From Nautilus pompilius (Eukaryota; Mollusca; Cephalopoda; Nautilida; Nautilidae): a DNA stretch of 64,000 nucleotides. Each line of letters begins with the position of its first letter. Position 1 is the first letter of the stretch. Below the pieces are notes generated by a model that worked only from the letters and a program-made list of their open reading frames with translations, was not told where the DNA came from and did not search any database. The DNA lies in the NCBI GenBank assembly GCA_018389105.1, contig JACATO010002451.1, forward strand, positions 2,930,501-2,994,500, in the 5' to 3' direction. Shown in pieces: positions 648 to 38,100 of the stretch. The translations under genes and the position numbers were made by a program.

Positions 648-1876
648 ATACTACCACTCAAAATATGGGTACACCACAGTAATTTAAAGTTTTTACTGGA
701 TGTCACAAATATAATTGAAACAAAATTTATTTCTAATAATTATTTAACAGTTTTAGTAATCAAATATTTTATTAGAATGTAGACTTTTTTTTCAATAGAA
801 TATCCTTCTTCTGTTGCAATTACTGCTTGACCGATTCTTGGAAGTCTCCTAATTAATTTTGTGAAATAACCTTTTGATACTGCATTTTACACCCCCTCTG
901 TAAGATTTGACACAACTGTTGGACTGAAGATGGTTGTTTATCTTTTGCTCTTCCATTTCATCCCATGCAATTTTAATAGGGTTTAACTCCAATGATTGTG
1001 TTCAATAATGACAAAGATCACCAACTGTCACCTGCAAAACAATTCCAGATCATTGTTTCCTTGGCCGTGCTTAACAGTAGGCTCAATGTAATTTTAGAAT
1101 ATGTTCACCCAAACCGCATAATTTGATCTAATTATTTCAAATTTGGATTCATCAGCTCAAAGCACCTTTTTCCATTCATCAATTGTCTAATTTTTGTGGC
1201 ATTTAGCCCAAGCAATCTTTTTTTTTTGCCCTTGTTTTGAGGTCTTAATAGGGGTTTACATGCTGCTTTTCTTCCAATTAATCCAGCATTTCCAGCCTCC
1301 TTTTAACAATAAATGTAGATATGGGGATTATTTTGTATTGTATTAAAGGTAACATCTGAGAGCTTGACAAGCATCTATTATGGAGGCTTGTTACCTTAAC
1401 ATAGTGGTTTGGTCGTGGTTTTCTATAGTTCAGGTTGGTATCAGTCTTTTTGTGGTGCAGTATTGTATAAACATTCAATTACCCTCTTAGATTTCTTGCA
1501 AGGATATTCCTTCCTTCCTTCAGTATAACAAAAGCTCTTCACTAATTAACTTCAGACTCTTTACTACTTTTCAGTTATTTTTTAAAGATAATTATCTCTC
1601 TCTGACTAAAAGTAATCTCAAGTTCTAACCATAAATGTGAAAATTTCTAGATAAATTACTTTATTTCTGTTGGTTACAAACTTTCACATTTTCTACATGA
1701 TTCTATGACCTATAGATGTACATTTATTTTGGCCAAGCATTGACCATAAAATACATTTGATGAACTGTTAACACAAATCATACATTGGAAGGATCATTTT
1801 GATGCTAGTTTTATGTACAGTATCACATAAGTAAACATTATTGTGATATACCCAAACTTTTAAGCAGTAGTGTATA
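648..1876 (-). mobile_element. Degraded Tc1 transposon with both inverted ends
   Basis: The left end CTACCACTCAAAATATGGGT and the right end (minus strand) CACTACTGCTTAAAAGTTTG are diverged inverted repeats of the Tc1 CACTACCGGTCAAAAGTTTG type, next to TA. Between them the minus strand carries a Tc1-type transposase in several frames; stretches such as KVTSLHNR, WAKCHKN, DEWKKVL and ADESKFEI recall KVTSKRD, FAKKHKNW, EDWKKVL and SDESKFNI. The N-terminal part is near 1,480 and the C-terminal near 700. There are many breaks, so it is an old copy. Confidence 0.75.
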
Positions 1877-5695: not shown

Positions 5696-6606
5696 TATCT
5701 GATTACAACTAGTTTCTATAGTGTAATATATTTGAATATTTTTAAGAAAGAATTCTTACAAGGCTAAATACAAATTAACCAATTTTTCCCACAAATTACT
5801 AAGAAAGGCCATCAAATGAGTGGTTCATTTTCTAAGGGAGGTTACAAAGTACTTTACAAATAGGTATTCTTTATGACATTGATCATCTGTGTATTGATTT
5901 GAGGTCAGCATATGAAAAAACATCTTTGCAGGATTTTAAAAAAAGAATAAAAGACTTCAAATATTTTCCAAGAATAGTAGTACTTCAAAACTCCCAGAAA
6001 AGAAATTAAAATTTAATGTTTATATTCCTTTTAAATATTATAGGTAAAAGGAAACAGCAATAGAAGCATAAATACCAATTTAAAATAAAATGAGGAAAAA
6101 AATTTGTTTTAGAAAAGGAAAAAGAAAAATCAGCAAGTTTTAACAGACAGTAATAACTATTTGGGTTATCTTTGTGTAAACTACCCTAAATTAATTAGAA
6201 ATTTGATATTTTTAAAATGAAAATACAGCAGCCACTTTGTTCAAGATTCAACTTTGTAGTACACACTCAGAATCCTAGCAGCAGATTATAGTAATCATTA
6301 ATGACATCCTACCATAAAATAACCATCATAAGCAGCCAAATGGTCAGCAGCATACTAAGTGTGCACTGTCATCGATATTAAAATATTTTAAAATAAAAAT
6401 TTTAAAACATTATATAATTACGCCTCCAGTTCCAAAGAGAATGAGTTTGTAAAATCTTAATGCCATAACTAAAAAAATACTCTTTTCAAAAAGCCATTCA
6501 TTACTGTATTAAATAGTTTTACTTCAATGCATCGCAGATTTTTTTTCATTCTCTAGCACAAATGATCTACAAAGTAGGAGAAAAATATTTAAATATTTAA
6601 TCAAAA

Positions 6607-6641
<35 letters not shown>

Positions 6642-8094
6642 CTGGGTATAGTGCTATAAATTACCTTCCTTGGTAGGAAGGTCAAAGACAGTTCCATTGA
6701 TTTTGCTATAGTTAGATTCTGTAATCTAACAACAACAAATACAGAATGACAGGCAAACTTTTATCTGAAGATGTTTCTAACATATGACTCAAAAGATTCA
6801 ACAGTATGTGGCAGTTCAACCTCATGGATCAGCATCCCATGTCGTCTTTACCTGGACCCTAAACACACAATAGTGAAAGTGCATGCTTAGCTATGATCTT
6901 CTCAGATGTCTCAGCAGAAGCATCCATCCATTTATTTATTTTTGCTTGATTGTTAGTGTTACAGTGATCTTTGGTGTTAATGCAACCAAAGAGGACTGAG
7001 AGAAAACAAAAATCAATACTGTAATCAGACAATCAAATTCAGAAAGGTTTTCTCAACAGATAACAGAGCAAAAACTAAGCAAAGTTAAGAGAATTTCTGA
7101 TATAAAAATATAAAGTCACCAATGAAAAAGTATCCCAGTTTAGCTTCTAAAAGAGCTGCATGTTCTGAGGTGTCCATCCACCTTTCTTTTTGGAGGAGTA
7201 TCCAACTAGAATTTCTTCTTGTACAAGTTAGGCTTTCAAATTGTAGAAATTACGTTCCCTTTCTTCTAAAACTTCATTCCTAAACTGAATTTCACCGTTT
7301 GTGCATTATTCTCTTGGTGGGTGCATTAAATGCTAAGAGTTTGTCACAGTCCCCTACTCTCCCCACTGAATATTTTGCTTAGAAAAAAAAATCATCAGCT
7401 CTGTGATGCTACAGGCAAATCAGCACCCCCATTTTCCCTTTAGATTAATAACACCAAACCAACACTTACTCTTTAAAGCTAGTTTGGAAATGGGCAGCTA
7501 AGATACTAGATCAGTTCAGGGAATGAGGAGGGGGAGGCTGAAGTATAAGTTAAGAGGATGAAACCAAAGATAAAGATAGACCTGATATAATATGTACACA
7601 TTTTTCTTGTCTGCACAATGATCAAATTAAACATTTTTGTAAATCCATCAGGCGTTAAAGTTTATTTTAATTAGATGTTTTTTTTTGTGTGGTATGTAAT
7701 TCCCTTTTTGATCCTCTTCAGCCCAACCAACAGTCGGAGACTTGAAATATGAGGGTTAAGCAGTCAGTATATATTCCATTTTTTGCCATAACTCCGCTAA
7801 CCTTATTTTTTCTCACACTGATGTATAGTTTGTAAATGCATGCATGTGTCCACAAAGACCTCAGAAAAAACGCTCAAGATATGCACCAAAATGCTCCAAT
7901 TTCATCCTATGATCTTCCAGATCACCCAAAAGATTAAATCCCAAGCTGACATTTTTGAGTCTTCTTTTGACAATAAGAAAACTTTGTCTAGCATTTCCAA
8001 CTCATTAAATTGGTTAATTTCAACATGGGCTACCGACCGACTTGTCTGCTAAGTTAAGCAAATTTATTCACTCAAAACACCCAGTATTACGTAC
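5696..8094 (-). other. Intron sequence with GA microsatellite
   Basis: AT-rich intron DNA. The only clear feature is a (GA)14 repeat at 6,611-6,638. I looked for the next ORD exon here (human ELSKITMPV) and did not see it. Confidence 0.5.
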
Positions 8095-8170
8095 CTTCCC
8101 TATGCATTGTTTCAGTATACTCCAGATGCTGAAGTCGTTTCTTGAAAACATAGGTTTTGGAAGATTAGTT
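8095..8170 (-). CDS. OSBPL1A: ORP1 exon 17: start of the lipid-binding ORD
   Basis: 76 nt, phase 2 in and phase 0 out, residues 551-576: [20 protein letters not shown], then KQCIGK. Human ORP1 has [25 protein letters not shown], so this is the opening of the ORD and the exon shared by long and short isoforms. The acceptor is TTTTGCAG and the donor is GTACGT at 8,094. The next ORD exon (human ELSKITMPV) was looked for down to base 1 and not found. Confidence 0.97.
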
Positions 8171-11100
8171 CTGCAAAAGAAAAATAAAAGTTAATTCAAT
8201 GTTGTTTACCTCCACTCCATCGCAATCAAGGTTCTCACATTTTTAAGCCACCTTTTTTTAAACATCGGTCACTTCTAGACTGATGGAAATCCATGGCACA
8301 CTGGGTATAACAGTTGTGCAGTAGACTGACAGAATTTCAATAAAACTTATTCACTCATGATCACATTTACTAATTAAAAAAAAAAAACAAACGAAATTTT
8401 TTTAACCCCATAATTTCTGTTTATTCTAATTAAAATCAATACATATCATAGATTGTAAGGTAGCATACAGGAAAAGTACACATGGAGAACTGTGATAAAG
8501 TTTTGGAGATTTTGGCACCAAAAAAACAAGAAAGAAAGGGAAAATATGCAAGTCAATTAAGTAGTCACTCTTATTTATAAAATTTGTAAAATGTGAGAAG
8601 TACCCAAGAAAGTTGAAATAACAAAGGAAAGGGATATCCTAACATGACCTGACAGTACTGAAAAGTGTCATAACAGGTGACGAAACGTGGGTGTATGGTT
8701 ACATTGTCGAAACAAAAAGGGCATTCATCACAGTGGGTGGATCATCATCAACGTGACCAAAAAAAAGCACGTCAGAGTCACTCAAATGTGAAGGTGATGT
8801 TGATAGTCTTTTTTGATTGGAAGAGCGTTGTTCATCATGAGTTTGTTCCACGTGGTCAAACAATCAATAGAGAGTTTTACTTGGATGTCCTGAGGCAGTT
8901 GAGAGAGGCAGTATGGAGGAGGCGGCCAGAGGCATGGAAAAACAAAACCTGGATGCTGCACCATGACAACGCACCTGCTCACACGTCACTCCTTATCTGT
9001 GACTTTTTGGCAAAGCACAAGATGACTCTCGTCCCCCAGCCACCCTACTCTCCAGATTTGCTTTTCAGAAAGCTTTAATCAGCATTCAAATGATCAGAGC
9101 TCCTGACTGACTGTGAATCGGTTCTCTTTTTGTTCATCTGTCAGCAGGCGCAGCACAAATTTTGCGGCTACACGATGCATGTTCAATTTTTCTTTTAAAA
9201 TCATGTGGCATGAACCTTTACAGATGCTTACTTCTTTGGAAACTTCACAGATAGTCAGGCGACAATTTCCACGGATCACAGCACGCACTTTCTCAACGTG
9301 ATCGTTGTCCATTGTCGTGGAAGGTTGTCCAGATTTGGGATTGTCTTCGGTGGATGTTCTTCCCGATACGAAATGCTGGTACGACTCATGACATTGCGTA
9401 CAGCTCAAACAATCCTCCCCATAGGCCTGTTGCAACATTAGAAAAGTCTCCGTAAAAGTTTTTCCCAATTTGAAACAGAATTTCACACAAACACGGTGCT
9501 CTTCAAGATCCTTCATTGTTCAACTTGCAACAAATTGCCAAGTGCACTAAACATACATTCACTCTAGCACATGTAGATCGATGACTGACTGACGTGGCAT
9601 GATGAGGCTATTATTAGACTGAAAGTCAAGGTCACCGATACACAGCACTGCAGTCACGAGCACACTGTGCCAGCTGGTTGGCACGCTGTTTTAAAAGTTC
9701 GGTTTCTTTTTGGACAGACCTCGTATAAGCATTCAGGCCATCAGGTTTATGCTATATAAATTTTGAAAAATTTTTATATTGTCACACATCAAAAAGTTTT
9801 ACAATTATTTTCCTTTTCTTTTTCAAAATATCAAATAAATAAAAATATTAGGTTTTTAAATTCTTAGAATAAATTACCATCACTATTAGAAATCTATACA
9901 AAGAAAAAAAATATGGATGTTCAGTTTTTTTCAATATTGTACTTCTAAGCAAACTTCCTCCTAATGCTAAACAAGAAAGGTACTGTATCTAGAGATATTA
10001 ATTTGTATTACATATTTCAGTCTTATCCTGGTCTGAAAAAATCTAAAGATATAGAAATTTGACATTGTATGTTTAATTCCACTAATAAAAAAACACAAAA
10101 TAGTCTACAGCTGTAGGAAGCAATGTGTTCCTTGACCAAATAGCCTATGGATTTCATTACAACATAGAGGAGGAATGATGTCACAATTTCTACCACTGCT
10201 CCACAAAGTCAAATATATCACAAGAGAGCTGATAGTCAATATTGGATGAGACCGCCTCATTTGTATATAGCCAAACATCATCTGCACATGCTTGAAATGA
10301 TACATCTGATCATCCTATTTGGTACTGCTTGCCACTAATGCATCAAAGCCACAACCAGATCATGCGTGTTTTGTAGAGGAAAGATTCCTACACTTTACTT
10401 GTCTACCAGATATCCCAGAGATGGCCAGTGGGTGACAGAATCTTGGCACATGCCTTGCCAGTGCATTGTAGTTGTTCCAAGAAATTCTGACCATCCTAGC
10501 TCTATGCCAGAGCACAATCCTGGTGCCAGTTGTTGGTAAAAAGGTAGGCCTGCCAGTCTTTCAGCATCATCTGGATACCTTTGACCAGTCAGGCAACATT
10601 AAACAACCTGGAAACTCCTGCTAGCTGTGATCCCTTCCGATGCCACTGGCAGGAGTGCTATCAGAAATCATCACTCGCTGCCTTAGACAATTTCTCCCTG
10701 TCCAAATGGGTATTTGCTCAATAAAAAAACACCACCCCACAACATATGGACATTTGGCACATAATCCTGGATGGTGAAGATGGTTTTTCTGTACACCAGA
10801 GTCCATGACTACCAGCAAACATTAGTCACTGTTACACAGATCTAGTATATTCTGCAGGGACACTCCTCTGATCATTCACTTATTATGAGTATCCATACAA
10901 TAGGAACAACCTCTGCCAAGTCTGTCATTCACATCATTGGAATGGTAAAAGCATGTATATAATTCACTAGCTTGATGTCAGCTGAACTACTGTAAGTGCT
11001 TGGTCATGTAGTTACAGATTTTACTGAATAACTGATGCCAGCTCATTGTACTTCATACCCACACTTTTAAACATATTAACAAGTATTTATTTTAAAAGTC

Positions 11101-17100: not shown

Positions 17101-20100
17101 GCCATGTATTTTTTGGTTGGTACTGATCGAATTCAGCCATGAATGCATTCTAAATTAACTTAAGTATAGGGAGGGAAAGAGAAAATGCTACAGGAATATG
17201 CATCAATTTTAACTCCATCTCAGACACTGGCACAAGACTATGGTGAGAACTTCCTGAAATAGTGACGACAGCCTATCAGTTTTTGCATTCCTTTGGGCAC
17301 CATCAGCATTACCAAAATATTTAACTCCCTGAATATTCTGACTGGCCCACATAAACATCTGATATGCACTCCCAGATATCAAAAAATTGCTTTCTGTTAC
17401 TCTCACCCAAGGTCATCATCACATATTTTTGCATAAGTGAAGCCTTACAAATCTCCTAAAAATTATTTTGATTAGAATGGATTTGCCATCTTCTAAAGTC
17501 CCTGTGGCTACTCCAAGCTACCTGATGGGCAAAGGAGGCCAGGAAGTTTGAAAGACAATCCTTTTTTGTTATGAGAGATTAACTGAAAGATATGCTGCTA
17601 CAGATTTAGTATGTGCAGGCAATTTTTAACTGTTTGTATCATAAGTTGGACCAGCTCCCACAGATTTCATGCTGTGAGGGTCACTTCCTTCCTTTAAAAG
17701 TAAACTTTTCTCTTCCTTTCTTTGTTTCACTTCTATTCACTCTCTTCTTCCATGTTTATATTTTGGTATGAACGCATCACTTCTGATCATCATGTTGCTG
17801 CTCACTTGATCTTTAAAACTAGAGAGGCAATTCATAAAATTACAGTTTTTTGCTGTCTGGAATTATAGATAGAGTATATGGCTTTATTACATTTAGTTGT
17901 CCATAATTTACAAGATAATAAATCCATACAGGTAAACTAAAGTCAAGTTTTAGTAAGAGTAGTAAGAATATCATATTAGCCTGGTCAAGATAGTCACCAG
18001 CTAGATTTTTTAATCACCAATGCTGACCTGGTGATTGTATTTTTGAAGACATATATATATACCTCTGAAAATTTAAGTTTAAACATAAAATGAGATCATA
18101 AACATAAAGAAAAGATTCAATATCATGAGAAAAACAGAAAAGATTTGCACTGTTTTGCTGTTTTCTGAATAAGTCAGTTTTTTTTTTTGTTTGATTCATT
18201 GACCTTCTGCCTCCTCAATTTCCCACACCGCCTACAGAAAACTAGTTTGTCAGTCATCTGTATCCTCTTGCTACTCCTAGTAGTCTTAGTCAATTTTCAA
18301 TGTAGCTGAATGCACTACTATAACTGATGTGATGCTCAAGAATCAATTTTTACTCCTGTCCCTCACTTTCACTTAACTCAGCTGGTTGTCCTTGACATCC
18401 AGTTAATACAGCAACCACTTTGTAGCCATTCTTCAATATTTTCAGCATCAACATTTTCACAAACTTTTTACTGCTGGTAAAAATCACTGCAGAAATTTTT
18501 TTCTCAAAATTTTTCAAAGTCTTCATTATCATCATTTGGAGTAATTTTGTGCAATGACCTTATAATCGTAACAGGCTTCATTAGATTCCATGCTCTAGTC
18601 ACTTCATAGATTGCGTCCAAAACTGTTAGTTTCCAAATTGATTTTATTTCCTCTGTCCACATATTTTGCAATAATCCTGCTTGGTAATGCATCTTTTTAC
18701 ATGCCATCACATCCTGATCCATAAGCTGAATTTAAAGTCACATTCAAAGGTAAATATTTCACAAAAATGTACCATCTACAAATTTTTAAACACTTTTGAT
18801 TTTAGTAGTCTAATAGCAAAACAGCTTTTTCTGGCAAGTTGCTTTTTTTTTTAATATTAAGTGTTTTCAGACAAATGAAAACAAACTTTTTTGTCAAATC
18901 ATTCTTTTGAAATGGCATGGTCTAACCAGGAACTCTTATAATTAAGATAATCTACCAGCATATTTGATGATTTTGTTCTTTTAAACAAATGCAGTTTCTT
19001 AGCTTCATCAATCATACAAAGTTTAAATTTCTGTGAACCGGTCCAGCCTCTCTTTACTGGACTTGTGGCTGGGGGGTATGATGTTCAATTTTGAATGTTT
19101 AAGTCCTTATCAGTAAGCATTTCCAATAAAGTTCACTTCTGTCCACATTAGGTAATTGCTCTTGTTACAAGTGTTCCTTTTCTGTAAATTTCTGATGCTG
19201 ACAAAAATCAGCAGCAGCCAAATGATTTCCACTTAACTTTTGAAAACTTGTCCATTGCTTAAATCGTGTATCACCTTTCATTCATATTGTATCAAACAAA
19301 ATCCTTGCTTGTTTTGCCCAAATCAGTCCAGACACTCTAGTTCCTTCGATTCTGTTGGTTGAAACACTTCAGCATCATTCTTCATCAATTTCAACTTAGC
19401 TTAATCACAAACTCTTGTGTACAAAATTAATTGTTCCTTTATTTCTTTTTTAAATCACGAACTGTCTGTTCACTCATTCTGTGTATCACAAAGTTGTTTT
19501 GGTGAATTGCCTTTTGCAAGTTTTTTTTCTGTTATTTCAATCTTTTCTTGAATCATTAGTACAACACACTTGCATTTATCTACCAACATAGAGAAAAAAA
19601 ATGAAACTGTTTATAGTTTTTTAAATTTTTTTTTAAAAAAACCCCTCAACTCTTTCCACATGTAACAGGAATAAACAAGATTACAATGGCCCTGATTGGT
19701 TGACTTTCAATTCAACTTGAAGCGTGCTACCTGTAAATACAATCTGAAAATAGAACTAGCACTTGTGCGAAAGATGGATCTGTGTAATGGATAAAAGAAA
19801 GTTCTATGACAATGTGACAGCTGCCAGTATGTTTATACAGAGAGGCTAGTTCAAAAGGATGCCACCTATTCTAACACACCTTTTTTTCCAAAGCTCAATC
19901 TGTAACCCAGATAATCCACCAATTCATTGATAATCAAGATTAAACAGTATTCCGCTATTTTTTCCAGCTAGGATATGAAAAAAAAAATAATAGTAAAAGG
20001 AAATAGGATTATATAAGAGATTCCTGCGCAATTACTCCAATAATTAGAGTGCAATGATGACAATTATTAGCCATAAGATAATTTAATTAAATATCAAAAA

Positions 20101-23100
20101 GCAAAGATAAGAAATAATCTCCAATTTACTTAACCGCATTTCCAGAAACATACTATTTATTTTGTTAACCCTGACCTAATGTTGTCGTCCTGCCTTTGTT
20201 TTAGGAGAGTGAGAAGTTTATTCTGGCGATGCCAGGCCGGCCGGAAGGTCCAAAGAACCTCCCCCTACCTAAGCATCCATCGGCAGCGACTTCCTTCTGT
20301 GTTCAAGCAGCACGACCCCCCCCCCCGTGTGTGTGTGTGCACCACTTTCACTGCCGCAAATGTAGATTCAGCGATGCGACATCGACGAGGAGACAGGTAT
20401 TAATTACACCTCCTACCAGGTGAACTCTCGAACCTGCCCGGTCTAGCTCCCTCCACCTACGGGGCGGTATCGCACTGAGAGAAGACATGAGAGCTGGCTG
20501 CCTACCTACCTGTAACGCGGACATGAGCAGCCCGGTTCGTTTTCCTCCTCCGTACTGGAGCCACTGCTGCTGGCAGGAGTACACTCGTCCATCTTGGGCA
20601 TTATATCTACCTCCCCCTAACCCCGCCTCAGACTGAAGGAGGAAGACCCACCATCACCACCACTGGACTGCCGCACCAAGCAGCAGCGATCGATAGACGG
20701 GGGGGGGGGCGCCACCATCTCGCCGGTGCCGCTCGGACAGGTTGACAAAGCCTACGTATCAGCCGACTGAAGAAGGTACATTCCGACCGGCTCCCTCCCT
20801 AGCTCAAGCAGCCCCTGATCACACAAGTGCGCGACGTCGCTCGGTTTAATGCGTATTCAAGGATGGGGGGGGGGGAGATCAGCCAGCTAAAATAGCCACA
20901 AATCAAACCCGATAATATGGCTTCTTGTAATCGAAAAGTGGCTCCAACTATGAAACGAACCGAAACGAAAATTCTAAATAATAGAAATTCATATCGATGC
21001 GACCTATGACTTTCAGATACCCCCCCCACACTTCTCTAAGATATTTCCCGTCCCCAGAGATTTTCGACCAACAAAAAATGTCAGTTGGACTGATGAGCAA
21101 AACCAGCAGTTTTCAGGCCAGCGAAATCCCTATTTTACATAGCAACAGAGAGAGAGAGAGAGAGAGAGAGCAGGGTGTTTGTAAATAGAACATTAAAGAA
21201 ACTACTAAACCTTACAATAAGTAGATAAGAAAGTGCTTTGGAATAAAGTTGACATTAGACATCACTGAATAAATTAATTACCTTAAGCTGTCTAAAAATC
21301 GAGAAAAAATTCATTGTTATTATTATAAATTTTCAACAAAAAAAAATTTTTAATATCAGCTAAATTAAAGACTTGAATATCTCGTTTTTGTAGATATTCA
21401 GAGGCTTGATTTTGTTGCTTTATTATTTCTGCTTTAATTAATGTCATTTTCTCGGATTTTTTTAAAATAAAAGTTAAAGTTTTAATTTTGCCTTCAAAAA
21501 GGAGAGAGAGAGAGAGAGAGGCATTTAATGTTTCTGCTGATTGGTAAAAAAGAAACAAATATTAACAAATAACAGAGGGTGACTTCAGAATTCTTCACCA
21601 ACCCTGTGAAACTAATTCGGGGCAAAGTTCCAAATGTGACAAAAGTTTTTTTTAAAAAAATCGCTGATTAAAAATTAGATAAATAAAATATTACAGAAAC
21701 AGCTTTGTCAGTACACTTTCCAAAGACTTTAAACAACAGGTCAGCCAAAAGGTACACGCACATACGTATGTAGCTAGTGACAGATGACAGATGTAAAGTG
21801 TTATACACCAGTTCCTGCATAGTTTGTAGATTTTGCAACTGGGGGGGGGGGGGAAGATCCCCACTTACACTAGGTGACATCATGCTGAAATGACGTCAAT
21901 TTTAGAAATGTGTTTCTTCTGAAAGTACTGTGTAACTGTAACTAAAAAATAGTTTTAAAAAAATTAGTTACCAACACCAATTTACTGAAACAAAATTTAT
22001 AAAAAATTTTATGAATTATTTTTACTTTTTACAGTATGTCCAGTCCTTCTCTGGATCAGCTGGAAGCTGTTCTTGCAGTCACAGATTCAGCATCTTGTGC
22101 ATCACATCCACATAGTTTACTAGGGTAGGTAGGCCAGTAGGTTTGGCAACTTGATGTATAATGCATTCTCCATGTGGATTGCCTTGTAGAATTTTTAATG
22201 ATACACAAAAATTCAGCAGATGCATGTGAATGTCCTGACATGGTATATTAGCCACACCTGTTTTTTTTTCAAATTTATGGATCAGATTATGCAAGGCTCT
22301 TGAGATATATGGGCCTTGACAAACATCTCTGTTGTGATGAAAAGCATGTAAAGCTTCCCCTGCATTTATTCATTACTATAAAAAATAATACAAGTGCTAT
22401 GTGATCTTGGATCTCTGCAGGCAAGCTAACACATCTGACAACCCTATTAGCTTATATACAAAGGAAAAACAACATAAGTAAACTCCCAAGTGGCAAAACT
22501 TGCAAATGTATTCCCCATAACCCCCTGTGTATAGACAATTACTTCCAATAATGTGCACTGCAGTTTGGGAGCCATAAACAGCTGACTGTAGAAAGTAACT
22601 TTATGGTTACCCAGTGTAAAACATAATGGCTACAAGAATATCTCATATCCACTCACCTTTGTGGGCCATAAGGAAATAGCCAAAAAGCAGCATTGGATGT
22701 ATTTCCCTGAGGCATAAGTGATGAGTCTGGAGTTGATGTGCAGTTGCTGCAACTCTCAAAAAATGCATCACCATTAACAGATGTGAAATCTGCTATGCTA
22801 TCTAAAATAAATCAATAAAAAATAAACGTAAATATACAGTTTGAAACCTGGCCTGCCTTCATTCAAGAGAAGTAGTCAAAAAAATAAGCAAAGAAATACG
22901 TTTCAGATTACCTGGAAACACCACAGTACAAATTAAAAAGTTATAGTATTTCAGGTGAGCACAGGGATTGTAGCAAACACAAGAATAATAATAATAATAA
23001 AATTTTTTTGTTTTTTGTGTTGTAGAAGATAGTTGTTTACCTTTTTTTTTTTTTTTAAAAAAAACAATTACTGCACCAATGTGATTAAAATTAGTTTTAA

Positions 23101-26100
23101 ACGAAATTTGTTGGGTTAACCTAGTTCAGGCATCAATTTCCAATTTTTTTTCTTTTTTCAAATCTATTGATTTCCATTTGAAGAATAGTTTTAAAGTTTT
23201 CTTTTTATATGTAATTCAACAAAATATGCCTCATCAAATCTTCTGCCACTTTATTATCTGATATATCAAATTTTTCTAATTTTTTTTAAAAAAATCAGTT
23301 TAAAGGAAATAATGCAAGGATGCGTTTTGAAATTAAAGAATCATCAGAATTTTCCTAATAAACAGACATTTTAGCCAAAAACAAAAAATTTTTGCAACAG
23401 CTTAACCAACATCATTAATTTCAAGAAAATTTAAATAAATTTAAACTTTTGATACTTTTTTTAAAAAATGTATTGGTGACAAATATGCCACTCCTAAACA
23501 TCATAGTTGTGCAAGATGATGGGCTGCATGCCATCTGCTTGGGTTCTCTGATCACTACTTTGTTGGGTTTTTTTTACTCTCACTTCAAAAGAACTCAGAG
23601 GGGAGGAAACAAAAAAGAAAAAAAGAATTGTGGTCTCCAAAGCATCAATATTTGGTCAATTATTGCTTATTTGGTTTTGATAGGTTCTAATTAGTAATTT
23701 TAGGTGACCCAAAATAGTATTTTTTACTTAATCTGTCACCACTGCTGACATACTTTCATCTCAAAAGGCTTGAAATATCCACATTTCAGTCGTAAGTGTT
23801 ATATATAAAAAATAATTTATTCTAAAATTACATGGGAATGTAAACTTTGCAAAAATAAAAAAGCAGTTGACATTTTAACAAAAACAAATAGAAAAGAAAA
23901 GCCATACCACCAGTAAAAAAAAAAGTTCAAACAAAAATACACAAAACTGAACATTTCTAATTAATCTTCAATATTTAAAAAAAAAATGCACAAAGCACAA
24001 GAAAAAATACTATACAAAGTGGAAAAATTGTTTTGCTATTCAGCCAAGTTGACAAAATGTAACAAAAGATGAAAACTGTTAAAACAGAAAGGGCATGGAA
24101 TGAAGAGTTGCCATTTAAAAGGGGAAGTAACTCTTTAATAAATAACAACTCCTAAATCTGAAGTTAGAAAGCTAAATAGGATGTGGTCATTATTTGGACG
24201 CCATTCTAAGTAAATTTATGGTCAGGCTTTAATAATATCTTTTGTTTCTTTTTTCCGACAATAAAAGACACATACACAGAAAAAAGAATATGCTAACAGA
24301 GAGACTTAATTTTCAGAATTCATACTTTTAATTCTAAAATCAAAGAAATAGCTTGATGCAGTTAATTAATTAGTCTAGTTAGATGTTGAAGAGAATGTCA
24401 TAAGAAATTAACTTCTTACCACTACTCTGGATGTCATTATCACAGTCATAGAACTCGTCATCATCTGTGTCATAAAACCTCCGGGGAAAATTCCTGGTAG
24501 AGATGCTCTGCTCCAGTTCATGGTGCTCAGTAGCCAGTGCATGCAATGCCTCCTGAAGAACACGTGATTTTTCTCTTTCCTGCATCAGTTGTAATTCTCG
24601 CACCTAGGTAGATCAAGTCTTTCATTAAAAAACACTGTGACTAAAATGTGTTTCACTAAAGTGAAATCAACACGTGCAGTACAGTGGTTCTTTCTCGGTA
24701 CTCAGGATGTTTCAGATCCAGGAAATAAACACAGCATTAAAAATTAAAAGAACCAATAATAATAAATAAGATCAATTTTAAAAATAATTAGCAATTACAA
24801 GAGTAGACCAACAGGGTTACAGTTAACACAAAACCATTTTTTTGCCAAATTATTACTCAACTAATCTCTTTTTTTTTTCAATATTTACACTTTTTGCTGT
24901 CACAACTTAGTTGCATAAAGCCAGACAGATCTGCTATGCTTACTGTTATTTTAAAAAAAATAAGCAAACCTCTTGCAAAACATGATATACCTCTAGCATC
25001 AAAGAATCTGTCTGTCTTTATGCATTCCTTTCCAGATATTTTAAAAACATCATTCTACCACAAGAAAACAAACCAGGTAACTGAAGCCTCTGCAATCTTT
25101 CTTCCTACATGAGCCTACATCTCACTATTGAGCCTAGCAAATCCTTTAACCTTTTGAAAAGTACCTACAGTGCCGGACAAAAGAGTTGGGATACTTGCTG
25201 TGAAATTGATATCTGAGCTCCCTCATTTTAACAAACGCATTTAAATACCCATCACATTGTGTATTATATGCACAAAAACATGCCGTTACAATGTATAAAA
25301 GCAACACATATGTTTACATATTCTCTGGAAAAAATATTTGAATCGGCAATGTCTGATTTGTACTGCAACAAGAGAGTTGGGACAGTGAGCAAAACCATAA
25401 ATATTTTTCAACATTCCAAAATACAATCGAACAAATGCATGGAAATGATCGATTGACTAGTAGTGGGTGGCGTTTCTGTGATTTTCGATCACTTCTCGAC
25501 AACGATGGGGCATGGATTCCACCAAACAAAGGCAGTCGGAATTGACCATTTCCTGCCAGCTTTTCTCAATGGCCTGTCAGAATTGGTCTTGGTTGAGATT
25601 CTTGTGTTTGGCCACCTTGGCTTTCAACTGTTTCCAGGCATTTTCAATTGTGTTGAGATACGGACTTTGGGACAGGACAGCGCATGAAATCCATTCCTAG
25701 TTGGGTGGTGAGGGAAGTGACGACTCTGGCAGTGTGGATCAGGGCATTGCTATGCTGTAAGGTGGCGGTGACAGGCATGTTCTTGTTGGACAGTAAATTG
25801 CAGGAGGTCTGAGCGGTCACTCTGCTCCTGATCAACTTGAGAGGGCCTGATCTCGCTGCGCTCATACACCCCCAGACCATCAATGATTCTCCTCAAGCCT
25901 TTACCATCAGTCAGGTGCACTTTATATTGTATTTTTCGTATTGGTAACGTCGAACATATACTCGGCCAGCACTGTGAATTCACATGATCATCGTTTCATC
26001 GGAAAAGAGAACTCTGGCCCATTGAACTTTGGACCAGTTTTAGTGCGCTTTAGCCCATGCTATGCAGATGTGCCTGTTCTTGTTGCTGATCAATGGTTTT

Positions 26101-29100
26101 TTATGGGCGATCTGTCCAAAGAGATTCCCCTCACAAAGACAACGTTGAAAAGTGCGACTGGAGACATTCACTCCACTCAGGGAGGCTCGAATGGCCATTT
26201 TTGGTTTTGTGTTTCCAGTCTCCTTGTACTGCTTCAGAATGCAGTTTACAGTACTTTTCAGGCAATTGACTCGATCGTCTATCTCCTGACAAGACAGATT
26301 TTCTTGGTGGTGCTCAACTATCAAGTCTCTGGTTTTAGACGATGTTGTCTTGCCAGGCATGGTGCAAAAATGATCTTAAATGGTCTTAGATGATGTGATT
26401 CTATTAATTTGATCCTTTAAAAATGAATATATTGAGGGGAATAAATGTATGCACAGATTTTGTTCACTGTCCCAAATCTCTTGTCGTGGTACAAATTTGA
26501 CTATGCTAATTCAAATATTTTTTCCAGACAATAGATATACATGACATTCATTGTTTTTACACATTGTAAAGGCATGTTTTATACAACTTATGGACAATAG
26601 GATGGCTATCTGTATGCAAATGAAAACAAGAGAGCTCAAATATCAATTTCACAGTAAGTGTCCCAACTCTTTTGTCCAGCACTGTAGATAGATAGATGGA
26701 TAAGCAGCTGCCCATCTCAGTAAATGACTCTGCATGCACAAAAGAATTCAGGTACTGTGTATTGTGCTGTACTGTCAAGATAAGTTAAAAAGAATTCTCA
26801 AGCAGCAATCTCTGACACAAATTTTGCAGACATATGGTGCTCAGCCAACACACTGGTAGTGTTTGAGACATACTGTGCTTTCTTTTCTCTCAACCACTTC
26901 TCTTCAGTCTCTTTGGCTCCCTGGTGCAGCATAGCCTTTCAGTACAAAATGTTGCTAGCTGTATCTTTCCAGCTTCTGCTGTTAATGTTAAAGGTTTCCC
27001 TCTTCCCTGAACCTTTCAAGATACCTGCATCCTTTTTGTAACACAGGTTTGAATACATTAACTAATGACTTGTGCACCTAAACTAAAACTTCCCAAATAC
27101 AGCATCATAACTAAGGACCTAATGGGTTTGTCCACCATGGGTTCCTAGAAAATACAAAAGAAAATTAATTAAAAGATTATTTCCATGGAAGTAAATTTAA
27201 ACAAAAGAAAAAAGCAGCAGGAATCTCCTTAATCAAGAAATACAATTTTTTTCAGCTAAATACAGGTGTCTGCTAAAACTAGCATCCATTAATCAACCAG
27301 ACAGTAACTTTGTACATTTGCTATATCAACCAGAAAGTGATAAATCTGCTTCACTGTTTTGTGCCAATAAATCTCTCATTTAGCCTCTTAAATAGCTGTC
27401 AACCACTTACTTTCACTAGTTTTAACCTCTGTGGAACTGATTGGTATAATCATATACACTGTTAATTTCTATCTATCATTGGAACACAGAAACACTTCAC
27501 TGCTTGCAGCTGTTAAACCATACAGACAACAATAATCAAACACATTGTAACCCATTCCCAGAAGGCTTTGATCCCTTAAACATAAACCACAAACACAAAA
27601 CCAAACAACAACAAATAACATTTTAGTTTTTTAAAAAAAAGTACAGCTGAGATAAACAGGAAAATTTTTTACAACCACAAATATAAACTGATTAAATGAC
27701 AGCAAACCTAGTGCAAGTTCAGTATTGGTTTTTTGTGAAACCCTAAAAGAGCCGACTATTCAGTCTGTCAGGACACACAAGCCCTACAAGCTATCAAGCC
27801 AACAGGTACAGTAGGCACACCCACCTTATCTTGGTTATTAAACATCTTCAAAGAACATGACAGGGCTGCGTACATTTCATGAGACGTCCCTAAAATTTGA
27901 CAGAAGTTCTGATGGATCAGCAGAAAATTGGCTAAAAAGAAGAAAAAATTTAATAAATAAATATTTTAAATGTTCAAAGAATATTTCCTCAATTTATTAT
28001 TTATTAATTAAATGCAAAGTTGATAGTAGTGACACAAAAGGCGACCCATCAAATGGACAAAGAATAAAGAGAGATACTGTCACAGAATGTAAAGGCTAGT
28101 AAATGCTCAATGCCAGCTCGCTGTGGCTGATGGCCTAAATGACTGACATTGCTTGGAAAACCAAATAAACCACTGTTTCTTCTTGCTCTTCTTTACCAGA
28201 GTGTGTGGGTTTTCTCCCACAGCTACACAGTAGTTCTAGTAGGGACTTCTGAAGACAAAGGTATGCAGCCTTGTTAGTGGTGACTGTGGCACTACACAAC
28301 CTCATCAGGTGCATCTGAGACAATGATCGCCAAAGAACAAAGGGTAAGAAGAAGAAAAATCCTGCATCAGTAATTACTGTTGCAAATGTCTAAAATTAAA
28401 CAATGAAGAAAATAACTTGAGCAATCACAACAAATAATTTTACCTGTAAAAGTTTTATTCAATGTCTATAATCTGTTACAATTCTATAAACTACAATGCA
28501 TTTTTGATAATCCTCCTCATCAGTTTTGAATTTCTAATAATCATGAATATCTTTTGAGTTACTGTTTTCTCCATTTTGTTCTCTGTGAATTTGAAGTCCA
28601 TTATTCAAGTCCAACCTATCTGGGCAGTCTTTGGCAAAACAATAAATAAAATACACAGTTTGCAATGATGAAAGTGTCATTTGCACATACATGTTCATAC
28701 AACAGAAAATTTTAGTGTAAACCAGAGCATCTTAAATTTAATAAAGAAGCAAATAATAACTCACCAAACCTAGACCAAATGTTGCACATTACTTATGTAA
28801 AAAATTGTACATGAGATAACTCCTTTTTCTTTGTTGCAGTGTTTTTTGCAAATTCCAAGCAAACAATGCTTTAGTAGGCCATGATGTCCATGATACGATC
28901 GCTAGATGAAGGAAGAATCTGGGCATTCCACCTTCCTTGTATTCAGATACGCAACTTATTTCTTGATCTTTAAATTTGTTCAGCAAAATATTGCAACTGT
29001 GATTAATAAATTTGTCCCACCCACTCATGGAATACACTCTTGAATCACATTTTCATATTGTCTTTGGGTATCTAGAAGCAATTTCATTTGCAGAGAACAC

Positions 29101-32100
29101 ATTTTCAAAGAGTGTAAACTGATGAAAATACAATTATCCACAATGCTGAAATTCAGGGAAAATATGGCATGCTAGAGATAATTTAAAATAAAAATTGCAT
29201 CACTTGAATTTTATTACATTCTTACCTGTTTTGGGGTTTTGCGTTTCCAAATTATTAAACAGACAAGAGACATTAGTCAGCTGTTGATCCAGCAGCTGTT
29301 GGTGCGCCTGTGCTATCTAAATTTGAAGAAAAAAATATCATTTTTTAAAAAATATTTTATAAGGCCAACAAAAACAAAATATTTTTTTTTTAAAGTGAAC
29401 AAAAACTAATGCATGCAATTTTGTTTTTTTTTTGTATGCAGTTTATGCACATTTTTCCTATTACATTTCATATAAAATGTTTGACAAAGATAAATTATAA
29501 TTTGAGAAGGCCAGAACTTTCATTCAACGATTATGAATAGGGAGACTTCTTCACTAATTCAAACATAGCATCCTCAAAAAAAACTTGCTAATGAGATATT
29601 TTTTCATATCCCTAATTCTCATAAAAGTACAATAATTATCATTCAGTCAAGTGTCGTCCTCCAGTTATTCAGATTCCTGGTATTACTGCTCTCCCCTGAG
29701 GTCTTGCTCTTGGTATGCCTGGTTGCTCACTCAGAATGGCCTTGTCCATTAAGAACTCATAGTCCAAACACTAGAATCTTCAGGAGAATAAACTTCAGTT
29801 ACATTAAACATAAATCTTTATCTTTACTTTCTTGGCAATAAAAGTCAATACTGCCATTTTAATGTGCTTAAATCCAAGTGAGATGCAAGCACACAAGATA
29901 TCACAACACATAATCGCATCATGCATACGTGTGTGTGTGTGTGTTGTAAGTATATTCACTAGAAGTTCATTACTTTCTAATTGCCACAGAGGATGAAAAT
30001 ATTGAACTTAAATCATCAACACAACAGTTAACAATCAGCAACCAAAGAATTAAGCCTACTGATGGTAAAATATTTCAATTTGACAAATCAACTCAAATGA
30101 AAGTTTTTTTAGTTAGTAACAGAGCAATGTTGATGTATCCAAGGATTCTTTCTTTACTGGTATCTAAGAAGATCAAGGATTTTTTGTTTTGCTTTGTTTG
30201 TGGACATGAAGTATAGGTGTGTGAGATCCAAGCCACCTACTGCCACCAGGTGGAAACAGAGCCAACAGGAAAGGGCAAAACCACTCGACAAATTTAGTAG
30301 TACATATATGAGTTGTGAATTTTTTTTCTTTTTTCACCTCATCAGGCTATGAAACATTCAAACCAGTGTTGGCTGAGCAACCTGCTTTTATCCAAAAAAC
30401 ATTAAAATTACAAAAGTACCCAGATTAAACCACTTACCTGTCATTTTGAGAACTAACTTATATTCTAGGTTATCTAACAAACTATGACCTGAACAAAAGT
30501 CTGCCCTTTAAGATAGAGTATGCAATCAAGATCACAATAAAAATTTAGACCAGTGATACAAAGGAACAGTCAGAGTAACAACAATTGTTATGAAAACTGG
30601 AAACTCAAAGCAAGGAGAAATAATTTAATAAAATCTAGCTTAGTAAAATTAAACTAAACTATTTAATGAGGATTAGCCATATTTATGCCACATGTAGCTT
30701 TAAGCAAAATCTGAATATACAATTCTAAGTTTTCTTCAAGGTAAAAATGTCCCCAACTGTGTACTGCTAAGAAATCAAGTTACCTTCTGTTACAAATTTA
30801 TGAACAGTTAAAATAATTGAATAAGTAATTTCTGAAACAAATGAAAATCAAGCAAACAAACAGAGGACATTAATATATGCAGTCAAAATATTCTTATTTA
30901 AAGTAGATAGAAAAAAAAAATCAACCACCACCATCAGCAACTTGCATAATTTGAGAAAATTCCCTTCTCCTTTCAGTTGAGCAGGGTGGCCAGTTAGCAT
31001 TAGGTGACTTTTTTTAAAAAAGAATTTTCATTTGAGAGACCAACTCGTTAATTCTTTAAATCAACAAACAGCAGTTAGTAGAAGAGGCAAGTATATAAAT
31101 GTCATTACAGTTCATATTTATTACCAAAGCATTTTCTCACATTTGGATTATTCCATGCAAGCTTAAAACTTACTTTTCTTTATTTCTTTAGGATGGATTC
31201 TTAACTTACCTGCAGAGATTCCAGCAGCGAGCCCAATGGCACGATTTCATCATCTTTATCATCATCTGAGATCTCACTCTGCTGCATATAATGGTTGCTG
31301 TAGGCTGTGTGCTCATTCAGAGAATTTAACCAATGCTATATATTTTTAAAAAAATCATCAATGTATTGTCAGTAACCTTTTCACTATAATTCCCTTTTAT
31401 GAAGATCAGTAAATCATGTGTGGAAATCAGCATTATCTTTGTTAAAGGTTCAAGTACTTTATTCAGACTTGTATAAACATATTAATTAATTAATTATTTT
31501 TTAAAGTTTATGATGTTCTGGCAAACAAAAAGAAAAACCATAATGGGAAAACATGATCTTATTTTTCGGTAAGTAATAAGTTGTATATTAACATGCATAG
31601 ACATCTCTGAAACCTGCATTTTCATTATTCCCTTTTTTCCAACTCTTTAGTGAATAAAGGAAAATATGATGATAGTTTTTCTTAAAATCATTTGATACAA
31701 GTTCCAAAACTTTCTCGATAACACACATCAGTAGATTTTTCAGTTCGCTTCACAAAAAAAGTTAAATATGATTTTTTCCCATTTATTTAATCCATCAATT
31801 TTTATACCATTTATATTGAAGAATTTTTGATTAGTCTCTTTACTAAATCTCTCTCTCTCAAGCAAAATCTAAAGAAATTTACATCATAATTTATTCACTT
31901 CATCACCAAAAAGATAAAAATAAAACATTTAAAAATCATTTTACAAGATGAATAACTTTCACATCTACTAACTGCAGCTACATGCAGAAGTACCTGAAAC
32001 AATATCAAACATCTACAAAGTGGCCTGTTCTTTCAGGTAAGTAGATATTGAACCGTCTCTACCTGTCGCACAATAAAGTCGCCTTTCAAAGGATCAGTAC

Positions 32101-35100
32101 ACAGGGTGTGGTATGTTCCATCAGAGAAGTGAATGCGGAATTGCAGAGAATTTTCAGAAAAAGACTGAAATTTAAAAACAAGTGGAAACAATAGTTAAGA
32201 AAAGATGTTCACCAGAAAAACAAATTCGATTTCCTAACTTAGAGTTAATGATCAAAATTTGTAAAAAAAAAATCATTAGTGATGAATGTAAAGATTCACT
32301 TGGATTGCATCCACCAATTTTCTTTTTCTTAAACATTTCCTTTGATAATAAACAGGAAACTAACAGCTAACCCCCCTTCAGAAAATACTTAAAACAAAAG
32401 TCTTGCCTATTTTCAGGCTGGGTACAAGTTCTTCAGAATCATCATTATTAACCAGAGAGTATCTTGCATTTTCAATTTAAGTGAGCTACAAAGACTTCTC
32501 ACTTACCTCCACAGTAGCTTCATATAGACATTTCATACCTTTCCTTCTGCTCCCAGTTCTAGCATCTCCTCTGAAATCAAACAGATTGGTAGCTTTGTAA
32601 AAAAAACAAAAATATTTAATCCTTCATCAACTAAGGATATTGAAAAGTACATGTTTTTGTTTTTTTAAAGGAAAAACATAATCAAGAATCAGTACATTAA
32701 GTGTAAAGAAATATTTCATATCCTTTATTTACTCTAAGGCAAACCCTAAAACATGTGAAAGTATTACTTTTTTTTAAAATTAAAATTTCAATATTATATG
32801 CAAATTAGCACATAACATTTTAAACTGAACATTCTTTGCAAATGGATAACAGTTACTAATGGACTCTCTCCAGCCAGCTAGAAAACCAAAGTAAACAGAG
32901 TTGTCTCTCTTCCATTATAGAGTCATTATCTAAATATACTGTTCAAAGTGCAACACGAGTTAAGGTAACATTTTCTCTATGATATTTTGCATCAAGCAGG
33001 CTTTCTTACTAATTCTATTCATCAAGTTAATGATTTAAAATTAGTGCAAGGAAAAAAAAACAAACAGAAAACATCATTTAGTACAATGAATCAGCTTTAA
33101 AATGATTATGCTTGCAAAACTGCAAATACTTTTAAGAGTAGAAAAAAAAATCTGCCTCTAGAAAAATTGCAAGCATAAAGTAGACAAAACTCTTGTTAGA
33201 AATATACATAACATATTTTAAAGCTAAGGATCTTTGATAAGTTTTTAATATTTCTAGTAAAATTAGTAAGAATTGTTGATTCCATTCAAAATGTTAGAAA
33301 CTTACAATAATAATAATAAATAAAAAGAAAAAGGAAAAGAAAAAAATAACTTAAATTTATCAAAATCCATGCATAATGTTTGTGAACAATTTACCTCCTC
33401 TTTTTTTTTTCAGTGTAAATGAAATGCTATGTTAAAGACCTTTACTGGTTTAATATCAAACCTCAATCTGCATGAACAAAGAACAACTTACTTATTGTTA
33501 AAATAAGACATTACACCCTTTTCCAGCACAACCCAGAACATTTTGAAACCAAAGAACCGGGATTTCTTAAATAAATAAAAATAAAAATAAAATAAAAAAA
33601 AATAAAATTAGTTTCTTGCAGAAAAAATAGACTGTAAATCAAGAATAAATCAACATTTGTAAAATAAAGCCCATTTTTCAAAAGACTGAAGTATTTTAAT
33701 ATTATTTATAAAGTTTTTTTTTTTTCCTATTTGTGTCTAAAGATTAGTAAGAATTTTCAGTTCATATAAAAAAGACTAGAGAATAGTTAGCCAATATCAG
33801 ATTCCAAACCCAATCCCTGTTGGAAATATGCAAGACTAAAATTATATAACCAGCTAATCTACATTTTTGGCACTCTTTCACTGTTTTTATGAAGTCTTTT
33901 AAAGAGAACTGGCAAAGAACTGAAGTGTCCTGATCTCTGACATAATTCTAATGGGAGTGAGAGAGAGAGAGAGAAAAGGAAAATAAGAATATTTCTAGAC
34001 ATTCAAATTATGTACTACTCTTCAGTGTTTATATTATTTCATACTTTATTATATATTTCTGAGAATACAAGGAAAATTTCCTAATAGTCATAATAAAAAA
34101 AAAAATTAATAAGAGAACACAACATACTTCTCAAACTTTGGAATTTTTGATATCCAAGATGGCTTCCTATCTAGTGATGCCTAGACATCATACTCTCAAT
34201 TCTTTCTTTTAAAGAATTATTAAGTAACTTTCAAGTTATGCCATCAGTATCTAGAGTGGCCATGTTCCCTTATCCCACCACCACTTAAAGCACATACTAT
34301 TGCAACATACTAAAAGCCAACCTACCTTCAATAGGGGTCCTTCACAGCGTGACGGAATGGACTGTATATCCCTTACTGGCTGAACCTTAAGAAGCTGCTT
34401 CATCTGAGGGGCTTGGGTATATTCTTCTGCTCTCTTGTCTATCAAACAATTTGAGACACAATGTCAACCAGCATTTGCATGGATGTGAGCAGCTGAAGTA
34501 CCTTAACATTGAATCCAGCCAAGATAAATCCCAAACATGTGCATGTGTGTGATGCATATACAAAGAAATGGTTGAAGGCTATAATCACAAGCTGTTTTTT
34601 TTCTCACCTGTCAAGGTGACCACTACCATTTTGGTTGATTGCCAGAAAAAAAAAAAAAAAAAAAAACATTAAACAAAGGCAAAGTTCTGATTTTAGACTA
34701 GGGGTACACAACATACGGCCCACGGGCCACATCCAGCCCGCCAATGAATGTGCCAAAATGAAAACATTTTAAAATAAATATAGCAGCTATGTCTAATTCA
34801 ATTAGATAGATTAGTTAAATGTGATACATTGATCTCTAGTGGTTGTTTTCCAATGTTTTAATCATCATTACATTTTCTGCAGCTCATATTTTCGTCACCT
34901 TAAATGGTTGTGTAACCTTCATACCTCGACGAAGGTAGCTGTCTACCGGGTCATATGCCTGGCAGCACTGTTTGTAAGCACTGAGTGCTGGACCCTGTAC
35001 CGTCGACATCGGCAATGCCTCAAGGAGTTTGCATACCAGTGCATGTTCATGGCACCAGGTGCATCGGAAGGAGCGACATTCATCAATGGGATGGACCCAG

Positions 35101-38100
35101 ATCAATCAGGCCACCAGTGCTGTGAAGAAAACCTACACCCGAGTTAAATACTAGCGAATGTAAACTGCATGTGAAGTGTATTACATCATCCCCAGTGTAT
35201 TGACCCTCGCTTACCACCATTTACTTGCTATCCATCACATACTATTGTCACAGCGATGACTCACTCTTGTGTTACAGGCCACTGACTGCTGCCACAGACA
35301 GGGGCTGGCAGTCGAACTGTGACCACCAGTGCAGCTGATGCAATCAAGGTTGCATTGCCATTGGCTAATGCTGCTGGGGCGTTCCACCTGGGAAAACATG
35401 GAACTGCCACACACCACACCTCGTGGGCAGCAGTCAGCAAAAGGTACTTGCAGAAGCAGCAATCCAAGCACCAGACATACACCAGTTCGGCTATGCTCCC
35501 TAGATCAGCTAGGAGCCAACAACCTGAATAGGCAAATGTTACTTCTCCACATGCTAACATGTCTCTGTCAAAACCAAGTGTGAGTAAAACAACAAAGGTT
35601 GACATGAGCACAGGAAATTTAATGTAGAATGGACGCCAAAGTACTTTTTTTTTTAATCAAGTCCTAGCACTTTCACATGCCCAGTCTGTTTGGAATGTGT
35701 ATCAATGGCAAAAGAATATATAATTTACAAAGACAATACGAAACAAAACACCCAAAACTTAGCAATATACAAGGTGAGAACAGAACGCAAAAGATAGAAG
35801 TCTTGTAAAAGCAACTAATATGTCAACAAAGCATGTTTGAAAAGAGAAGAAAGGAGTCGGAGGCATCTACCATTGCCAGCTACAGGACTGCTAAACTTAT
35901 CGCGAAATCTGCCCGTCCCTTCACCGATGGTGAGTTTGGGAAAGACCGCATGATGGAGACATGTGACATACTTTGCCCGAAGGCCAAGATGTTTTTAACG
36001 ACACTAGTCTTTCAAGAACAAGCATTCAGCAACGCATTTTTGACATGGCCAACAATTCATGCGATCAGTTAAGAAGAAAAATTAATCACATCACGAATTT
36101 TTCTGCTGCTTTGGATGTGAGCACAGACAAGACCGATACAGCAGCACATCTCTCAATATTTATCTGTGGTGTCACCGAAGCATGTCAAGTGTATCAACAA
36201 CTCACATCACTAGTGTCCTTGCATGGCAGAACAACTGGGTCCGAAATTTTCAGTGCCTTCAAAAAACAGTCGAAGACCTAAATTTACCATGGAATAAATT
36301 AGTAGCCATGAAAACCGATGGTTCTCCCACCATAATCGGTGAGACGAATGGCTTCATTGGATGTCTGAAGAAGAACCTTGGACTAGATCTCACAGCACAA
36401 CTAAAAGATTACCGCTGCATAATTCACCAGGAGGCATTGTGCGGAAAACATTTAAAATTCAAAGATATAATGGACTTTGTTTTATCTACTGTTAATTTTA
36501 TCCGTGCAAGATCACTAAATCATAGGGAATTCCAATCTTTTCTGAAGGACGTCAGTGTGGTTTATTGGGACGTTCTCTATCACACAAAACGAGAATGAGA
36601 TGGCTGAACCATGGTAATGTTTTGAAACAATTTTTTGCTCTGCAAAATGAAATCGAGCTGTTTTTACAGCAAAGAGGAAAGGACATTTCAGTAATGGAGA
36701 ATACTGACTGAATTGCTGATTTTGCCTTTTTGACAGACCTCACTGGACACTTGAATGATCTCAACCTGAAACTGCAGGTGAGAGAGAAACTGATTTGTGA
36801 CTTGTTTGAAGCAGTCTGTGCATTTGAAATAAAACTGAAACTTTTTGCAACCCAGTTAAAGAAAGGGAATCTGACACACTTTCCAGCATGCCAAGATGCC
36901 TTTTCGCACAAGCATTACAACTGGAGCCGTCACTGCTGTGTGCTTGAAGACCTGCAGCAGGCTTTCACCATCAGATTTGGACAGTTCAGGAACAACCAGG
37001 CTGCGTTCAGACTACTTGCAGATCCATTTTCTGTGGATGCTGAAACTGTACCTGGTGATGTACAGCTGGAAGTAATTGAACTCCAGTGCTCTGCAGTGAT
37101 GAGGAGTAAGCACAGGAAGATGCCACTCCTACAATTCTATCAGGGCCTGGATCGGCATCTGTTTTCCAATATCACTGCGAATGCACAGAAATGGGTTTCA
37201 ATGTTTGGAAGCACTTACATATGTGGACAAGTTTTTTCCTTAATGAAGATGACCAAGTCTCCAATGTGAACAAGACTAACAGATTATAACCTCAAGGCAG
37301 TGCTCAGAGTTGCGACCACCTCATTGGAGCACAACATTAATCAGTTGGTGTCAGAGAAGCGCTGCAATGTCTCCCACTGACCACGACCTTTTCTTTTTCT
37401 TGGAACTGACATCAATGTAAGTAGAATAATTCTATATAACAAATTGATCTGAGTAAGTCTATAAAAAAAATTTCATGTTATAAGGTATAGAGATGGATGC
37501 CGAATTTTTGTGGCCCACTGATGGAGGTGTTACATGAAAGTGGCCAGCGTTGAAAAGAAGTTGTGCACCCCTGTTTTAGACCATCCCTGCATTAATAATG
37601 CTGAAAAAGAAAGGTACATACATCCATTTTCCTTAGCCAAGACACTGAAGCCACCCCAAAATAGAATAAACAGCACAAACTGATGACAGAAGCTGCCTTT
37701 AGGATTATTATATTTCGAGGAGGTCCTCCCCACAGGAATTACTGTCAAAAAACTGGGTTGCAATTCAAAAATAAGAAGTAATGTCACAAAGAAAGTTGTT
37801 ACAACCACCCTTGTTTTTTCTCATGTATACAAAACATAGCAAGATAATATACCACTTTACTGTACAATGGGACATTAAAAAGTCACAAAAGCAAACAATT
37901 TCATAAAATAATGCAAAAGCAGCATAAATAAATTCATTCTTTGCTGCAGTAAAATCCTATAAAGTTTTTTTAAAAATTTCTTATTTTCTGAGCCCTCAAA
38001 ATTCACTCATTCAATTCAACAAATAATAATGAAGTTCTCTCTTTCAACTTGATTATTGTAGAACAACTCAGCTTAAATCAGATTAAACTTTCCATATTAA

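Follow-up and report, generated by a model that had tools for sequence, protein, structure and literature searches.

A CpG island within an ORP1L-type gene of Nautilus pompilius and a candidate first exon for a short ORD isoform

Our analysis of a 64,000-nucleotide stretch of Nautilus pompilius DNA (the window; contig JACATO010002451.1, positions 2,930,501 to 2,994,500) suggests that a CpG island lying within an ORP1L-type gene serves as a second promoter and supplies a private first exon. This is the best-supported reading of the region and, going by composition, reading frame and splice signals, we give it a probability of about 0.5. We predict that the island, at 20.0-21.05 kb, acts as the second promoter of the gene and that RNA polymerase begins there on the minus strand, at ~20.6-20.8 kb. 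The resulting first exon, ending at 20,510, would carry a start codon of its own, with 27 or 30 codons in all, and would be spliced across 12.3 kb onto the first ORD exon at 8,170. In ORP1L, the ankyrin repeats (ANK) and PH domain direct the protein to late endosomes, and the FFAT motif binds VAP at the ER. The short product would keep the ORD and be without ankyrin repeats, PH domain and FFAT motif. Having lost these, it would be a soluble sterol/phosphoinositide-exchange domain, tied neither to late endosomes nor to the ER receptor VAP, and the ratio of the two promoters would set tethered versus free activity. We infer an ORD-only short form rather than reading it off directly, since the window holds the first ORD exon alone. 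An earlier, sequence-only reading had proposed the same second promoter and private first exon. The island's composition, the well-formed exon and its phase speak for that proposal, while the human parallel drawn with it did not hold in the form given (see the last section).

The ORP1L-type gene on the minus strand

Homology and open frames place an ORP1L-type gene on the minus strand of the window, with the exons listed below.

55,451-55,299, 54,318-54,233, 46,511-46,437 and 45,295-45,187, minus strand: four ankyrin exons, open in frame from ATG 55,443
38,130-38,274, minus strand: third ankyrin repeat exon (tblastn E 6e-10)
33,492-33,565, minus strand: putative PH domain exon (tblastn E 4e-6)
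31,210-31,335, minus strand: exon closing the putative PH region (tblastn E 1.6e-5, donor 8.7)
24,420-24,603, minus strand: FFAT exon, phase 1 out (50% identity, E 9e-11)
22,657-22,801, minus strand: candidate last pre-ORD exon of the long form, phase 1 in and phase 2 out (AG)
8,095-8,170, minus strand: first ORD exon, beginning (AG)A ACT AAT (acceptor 8.1 bits)

The tblastn query was an approximate human ORP1L sequence. The ankyrin and PH matches share 37-62% of their residues with human and the ORD exon shares 84%, which points to an animal far removed from jawed vertebrates; the two PH matches span 28 and 30 residues. The product of the four ankyrin exons matched Pfam Ank (4.6e-26), and in PDB it matched the human ORP1 chains 8zq3 (E 4e-46) and 6iyb (E 4e-40) among the best 60 of 394 matches listed, most of which score better and are ankyrin proteins of other kinds or of artificial design. 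The FFAT exon matches residues 428-485 of the human ORP1L query and its motif aligns to EDEFYDALSD, so that a predicted FFAT motif precedes the ORD. The ankyrin, PH-like and FFAT sequences all lie on exons that the proposed short form skips. When the first ORD exon was compared with PDB, it matched human ORP1 (E 6.7e-10) and ORP2 (5zm8, 1.7e-8), and ORP3 weakly (0.079); joined peptides holding this exon gave no Pfam match. Later ORD exons were not found in the window by tblastn, and they are presumably located beyond base 1.

Joined directly to 8,170, the FFAT exon breaks the frame. Since it leaves in phase 1, a phase 1-to-2 exon must intervene. A scan for such an exon gave no candidate under strict cut-offs, and 6 and 5 candidates under relaxed ones. 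The best of the 6 was 22,801-22,657, with a donor of 8.0 and an acceptor of 0.3; acceptors of the nine homology-placed exons range from -4.7 to 8.2. Of 200 random sets matching the intron in composition, one contained an exon as good, with the thresholds set to the candidate, which itself had no homology support. The sequence-only reading had placed a phase-2 exon (its exon 16) before the ORD in the long form, and this candidate supports that claim. Since its position is upstream of the island, this exon too would be missing from the proposed short form.

Two CpG islands in a depleted window

The 64-kb window holds two CpG islands, the second of them deep within the gene.

59,801-60,900, no strand assigned: first CpG island, presumed from its position to be the long-form promoter
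20,001-21,050, no strand assigned: intragenic CpG island, proposed from its composition as the second promoter

The first island lies upstream of the long-form ATG exon and has a GC content of 0.467, with observed/expected (o/e) ratios of 0.90 for CpG, 0.95 for TpG and 0.86 for CpA. The inner island has a GC content of 0.499 and 54 CpG, with corresponding ratios of 0.84, 1.03 and 0.86. The CpG o/e of the whole window is 0.27, and the 12 CpG-richest 1-kb windows listed all fall within the two islands (20.0-21.05 and 59.8-60.9 kb). In the 500-base windows starting from 20,101 to 20,601, GC is 0.52-0.59 and CpG o/e is 0.70-0.89. CpG islands are defined by a GC content of at least 0.5, a CpG o/e of at least 0.6 and a length of at least 200 bases, and the 500-base windows from 20,101 to 21,100 are islands by this definition. 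Elsewhere, CpG o/e was 0.18-0.24 in three gene-body stretches (TpG 1.27-1.35), 0.14 at 1-8,000 and 0.19 at 61-64 kb, and the CpG-depleted stretches sampled all carry a TpG excess of 1.18-1.35. Two lesser CpG-rich patches also show TpG excess, at 35.5-36.2 kb (0.58, TpG 1.42) and at 25-26 kb (0.52, TpG 1.38).

Retention of CpG with no excess of TpG or CpA is expected where germline methylation is absent. Based on this composition, the inner island is most likely regulatory and of promoter type, and its base content, like that of the first island, fits protection from germline methylation and not a young insertion. A repeat or transposon origin for the island was rejected on comparison within the window: its matches elsewhere there were all 33 bases or shorter with E 0.07 or worse, and the mariner copy at 8.7-9.5 kb, with a CpG o/e of 0.63 and TpG of 1.32, differs from it in CpG/TpG pattern.

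Several further features of the window were recorded. Its CpG landscape is vertebrate-like, with deep depletion and TpG excess in the sampled stretches and two islands, and long runs of C or G (at least 10) occur in or beside the inner island (20,201-20,900) and in the first island too. The mariner-like (Mos1-type) transposon copy, at 8,674-9,519 within the 12.3-kb intron, has pieces on opposite strands: HTH_48 on a minus frame (9,094-9,519) and Transposase_1 on a plus frame (8,674-9,078). A strongly CpG-decayed DDE_3 transposase fragment lies on the minus strand at 41,837-42,355 (E 1.5e-9). A weak DUF659 match on the minus strand at 50,139-50,531 (E 4e-5, below the Pfam cut-off) is probably a hAT-type transposon remnant, DUF659 being linked to such transposons. 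Long open frames (up to 185 aa) cluster on both strands at 35,261-37,269 with no clear Pfam family and are likely an unrecognised mobile element. A 168-codon open frame on the plus strand (25,887-26,393), in a GC-richer stretch, had no Pfam or PDB match, and Rfam and tRNA scans of the whole window gave no matches.

The candidate first exon and competing explanations

The elements of the proposed exon are the following.

20,510-20,592, minus strand: proposed private first exon (coding, phase 2) of 27 codons and a final AG, from frame, donor and phase
20,592-20,601, minus strand: two in-frame starts, ATG 20,601 (MPK) and ATG 20,592 (MDEC), from sequence and translation
20,501-20,513, minus strand: donor CAG GTAGGT with exon end at 20,510, plus a weaker tandem donor ending at 20,506
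20,634, minus strand: possible start site, the A in a TCAGTC motif, 33 bases upstream of the first ATG (motif scan, weak)

The minus strand from 20,592 to 20,510 reads ATG GAC GAG ... TAC AG and then GTAGGT, giving 27 open codons plus AG, and the ATG at 20,592 is flanked by A at -3 and G at +4. A second ATG at 20,601 (MPKMDEC...) precedes it in frame, with A at -3 but C at +4 and an in-frame TAG immediately upstream, so the leader may be 30 codons long. Scored with a consensus matrix of approximate frequencies, the donor at 20,510 reaches 7.1 bits. No other donor on the two strands of 19,951-21,050 exceeds 4.5, the remaining island donors scoring 4.0-4.5, and the one at 20,510 joins the ORD exon at 8,170 in frame and without a stop, in support of the second-promoter reading. 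These results agree with the sequence-only reading, which had described a CpG island holding a minus-strand ATG in good context, 27 open codons and a strong donor, in a phase (2, ending AG) that fits the ORD acceptor. A scan from 20,500 to 8,180 with thresholds of -3 for the acceptor, 3 for the donor and 30-450 nt for length turned up no cassette that keeps the frame, which likewise favours a second promoter. The joined 53-residue peptide of leader and first ORD exon had no Pfam match, a point against it, and the leader contains no FFAT-like motif by eye.

To gauge how often such an exon arises by chance, the minus strand of the island was put through 2,000 dinucleotide shuffles. An ATG in good context with at least 20 open codons, a donor of at least 7.0 and phase 2 appeared in 6 shuffles, an equally good exon in any phase in 22 and a phase-2 exon with a donor of at least 4.0 in 62; these counts are flattering because the thresholds were picked after the case had been seen. 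A donor of 7.0 bits or more is not rare by itself: the minus strand has 9 among its 3,647 GT and the plus strand 3 among 3,080. Apart from 20,510, the minus strand has eight such donors, of which three end tblastn-placed exons (31,210, 38,130 and 46,437), one ends a PH-like stretch recognised by eye (32,507) and one ends the inferred pre-ORD exon (22,657); those at 30,438, 34,608 and 29,226 end no recognisable exon. Strong donors that belong to no recognised exon, three on each strand, count against the second-promoter reading. Taken together, donor, frame and phase are supportive of it, though not proof.

Signals for a start site and for direction were also sought. The initiator motif TCAGTY occurs twice on the minus strand of the island (20,634 and 20,768) and not at all on its plus strand; its absence by motif scan from the first island (59.8-60.9 kb) counts against the second-promoter reading. 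Minus-strand GC skew is +0.31 at 20,700-20,601, +0.05 to +0.15 from 20,600 to 20,201 and +0.33 at 21,100-21,001, and as a pointer to the direction of transcription it is not decisive. YY1/TISU-like sites lie near the ATG at 20,585-20,596 (3 mismatches) and 20,711-20,722 (2 mismatches), but this motif was discarded as too common, with 62 matches in the window where 47 were expected, a count attained by 1 of 100 shuffles.

The foremost competing explanation, which we consider unlikely though still to be reckoned with, is that the island is an enhancer or the start of an antisense or non-coding RNA, that there is no ORP1 isoform and that the open frame is due to chance. Many mammalian intragenic islands are not annotated promoters and some are enhancers, according to the relevant passages of PMC8873577. 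The post hoc thresholds of the shuffle test also lend this explanation weight, as does a 63-codon frame that an ATG opens on the plus strand within the island (20,229-20,419), with a donor of 4.4 bits. Chance would nevertheless have had to give the coding strand the best donor of either strand, in the only phase of three that fits, and to produce an exon that only those 6 of 2,000 shuffles matched.

We consider it improbable that the island is a second promoter with another product, in which a non-coding first exon or a different donor would be used and translation would begin at the Met of the ORD exon (PKPMFSRND) or in upstream frames. Three ATGs lie upstream between 20,900 and 20,601 (at 20,781, 20,718 and 20,654), so a far-upstream start would hamper translation of the leader. 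Alternative donors are present at 20,652 and 20,269, and use of the 4.0-bit tandem donor at 20,506, 4 nt downstream of 20,510, ends the leader at a TAG; this stop also counts against the second-promoter reading as we propose it. On the other hand, the donor at 20,510 is clearly the strongest and keeps the frame, and a start at 20,634 would bypass all three upstream ATGs, with no further ATG between it and the first ATG of the leader.

Finally, a cassette exon of the long form, running from 20,569 or 20,566 to 20,510 (57-60 nt, phase 2 to 2) between 22,657 and 8,170, is very unlikely: it would preserve the frame, its acceptors (0.6 and 1.4) fall inside the range of the nine homology-placed exons (-4.7 to 8.2) and a shifted form ending at 20,506 would fit phase 1 to 2 and replace exon 22,801-22,657, but such acceptors are common (8% of the strand's AGs score at least 1.4 and 14% at least 0) and the island would be left unexplained.

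Comparison with human ORP1 and other systems

ORP1L and ORP1S are reportedly described in a 2003 paper. Like human OSBPL1A, the Nautilus gene would pair a long ANK-PH-FFAT-ORD protein with a short ORD form from an alternative deep start, the short form being a proposal here; in human the short form arises from an alternative start site (PMC3208247). ORP1S is given as residues 514-950 of ORP1L (PMC6381110), with 513 residues that only the long form has and none peculiar to the short (Table 2, PMC3208247). PMC3208247 also reports on OSBPL1A isoform ratios in tumours, a parallel to the balance of tethered and free activity predicted here. Human ORP1S therefore begins inside coding sequence common to both forms, roughly 20 residues ahead of the ORD, and has no residues of its own. 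In contrast, the start proposed here would lie beyond the 3' end of the candidate last pre-ORD exon (22,801-22,657), replace that exon and add a private leader of 27-30 residues. The proposed exon thus departs from the ORP1S pattern of a start within sequence shared with the long form and no private residues. The sequence-only reading had put the vertebrate internal promoter "in the same place" and had called the leader "unrelated to the human one". The first claim does not agree with the human start, and the second falls away since a short form that starts within shared coding sequence has no private leader for comparison. In human ORP1S the first 20 residues are barely needed for self-association (PMC6381110), which makes a different leader at that place plausible.

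We found no account of an invertebrate short ORP1 promoter in the open-licence literature, a scope that leaves most subscription papers outside. Relatives were also sought in viral contigs (25 pattern matches, none confirmed) and in bacterial and archaeal genomes (320 pattern matches, none confirmed); these empty scans say little because neither collection is meant for animals.

Intragenic CpG islands can act as alternative promoters in mammals, as the relevant passages of PMC8873577 state. The present case resembles the SHANK3 examples given there in having an island within the gene and a proposed shorter mRNA. It differs in that the mammalian cases rest on methylation and expression data, whereas the Nautilus island is proposed as a promoter from its composition. 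If the proposal is true, a clear two-island CpG landscape outside mammals would let composition alone reveal alternative promoters.

The first ORD exon is also similar to that of ORP2 (OSBPL2), the short vertebrate paralogue (PDB 5zm8, E 1.7e-8). Unlike the short form proposed here, ORP2 is a separate gene, and its N-terminus bears an FFAT-like motif. We can speculate that the Nautilus gene keeps an old two-promoter design, a long ANK-PH-FFAT-ORD form and a short ORD form, which predates the vertebrate ORP1/ORP2 split. Vertebrates would later have moved the short start upstream (ORP1S) and the short form to its own gene (ORP2), while the private first exon at the second CpG island was retained here; we regard this history as doubtful. 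If the second promoter is real, the use of promoter choice to separate a tethered lipid exchanger from a free one would not be confined to mammals, and gene comparison could test how the short ORPs (ORP1S and ORP2) originated.
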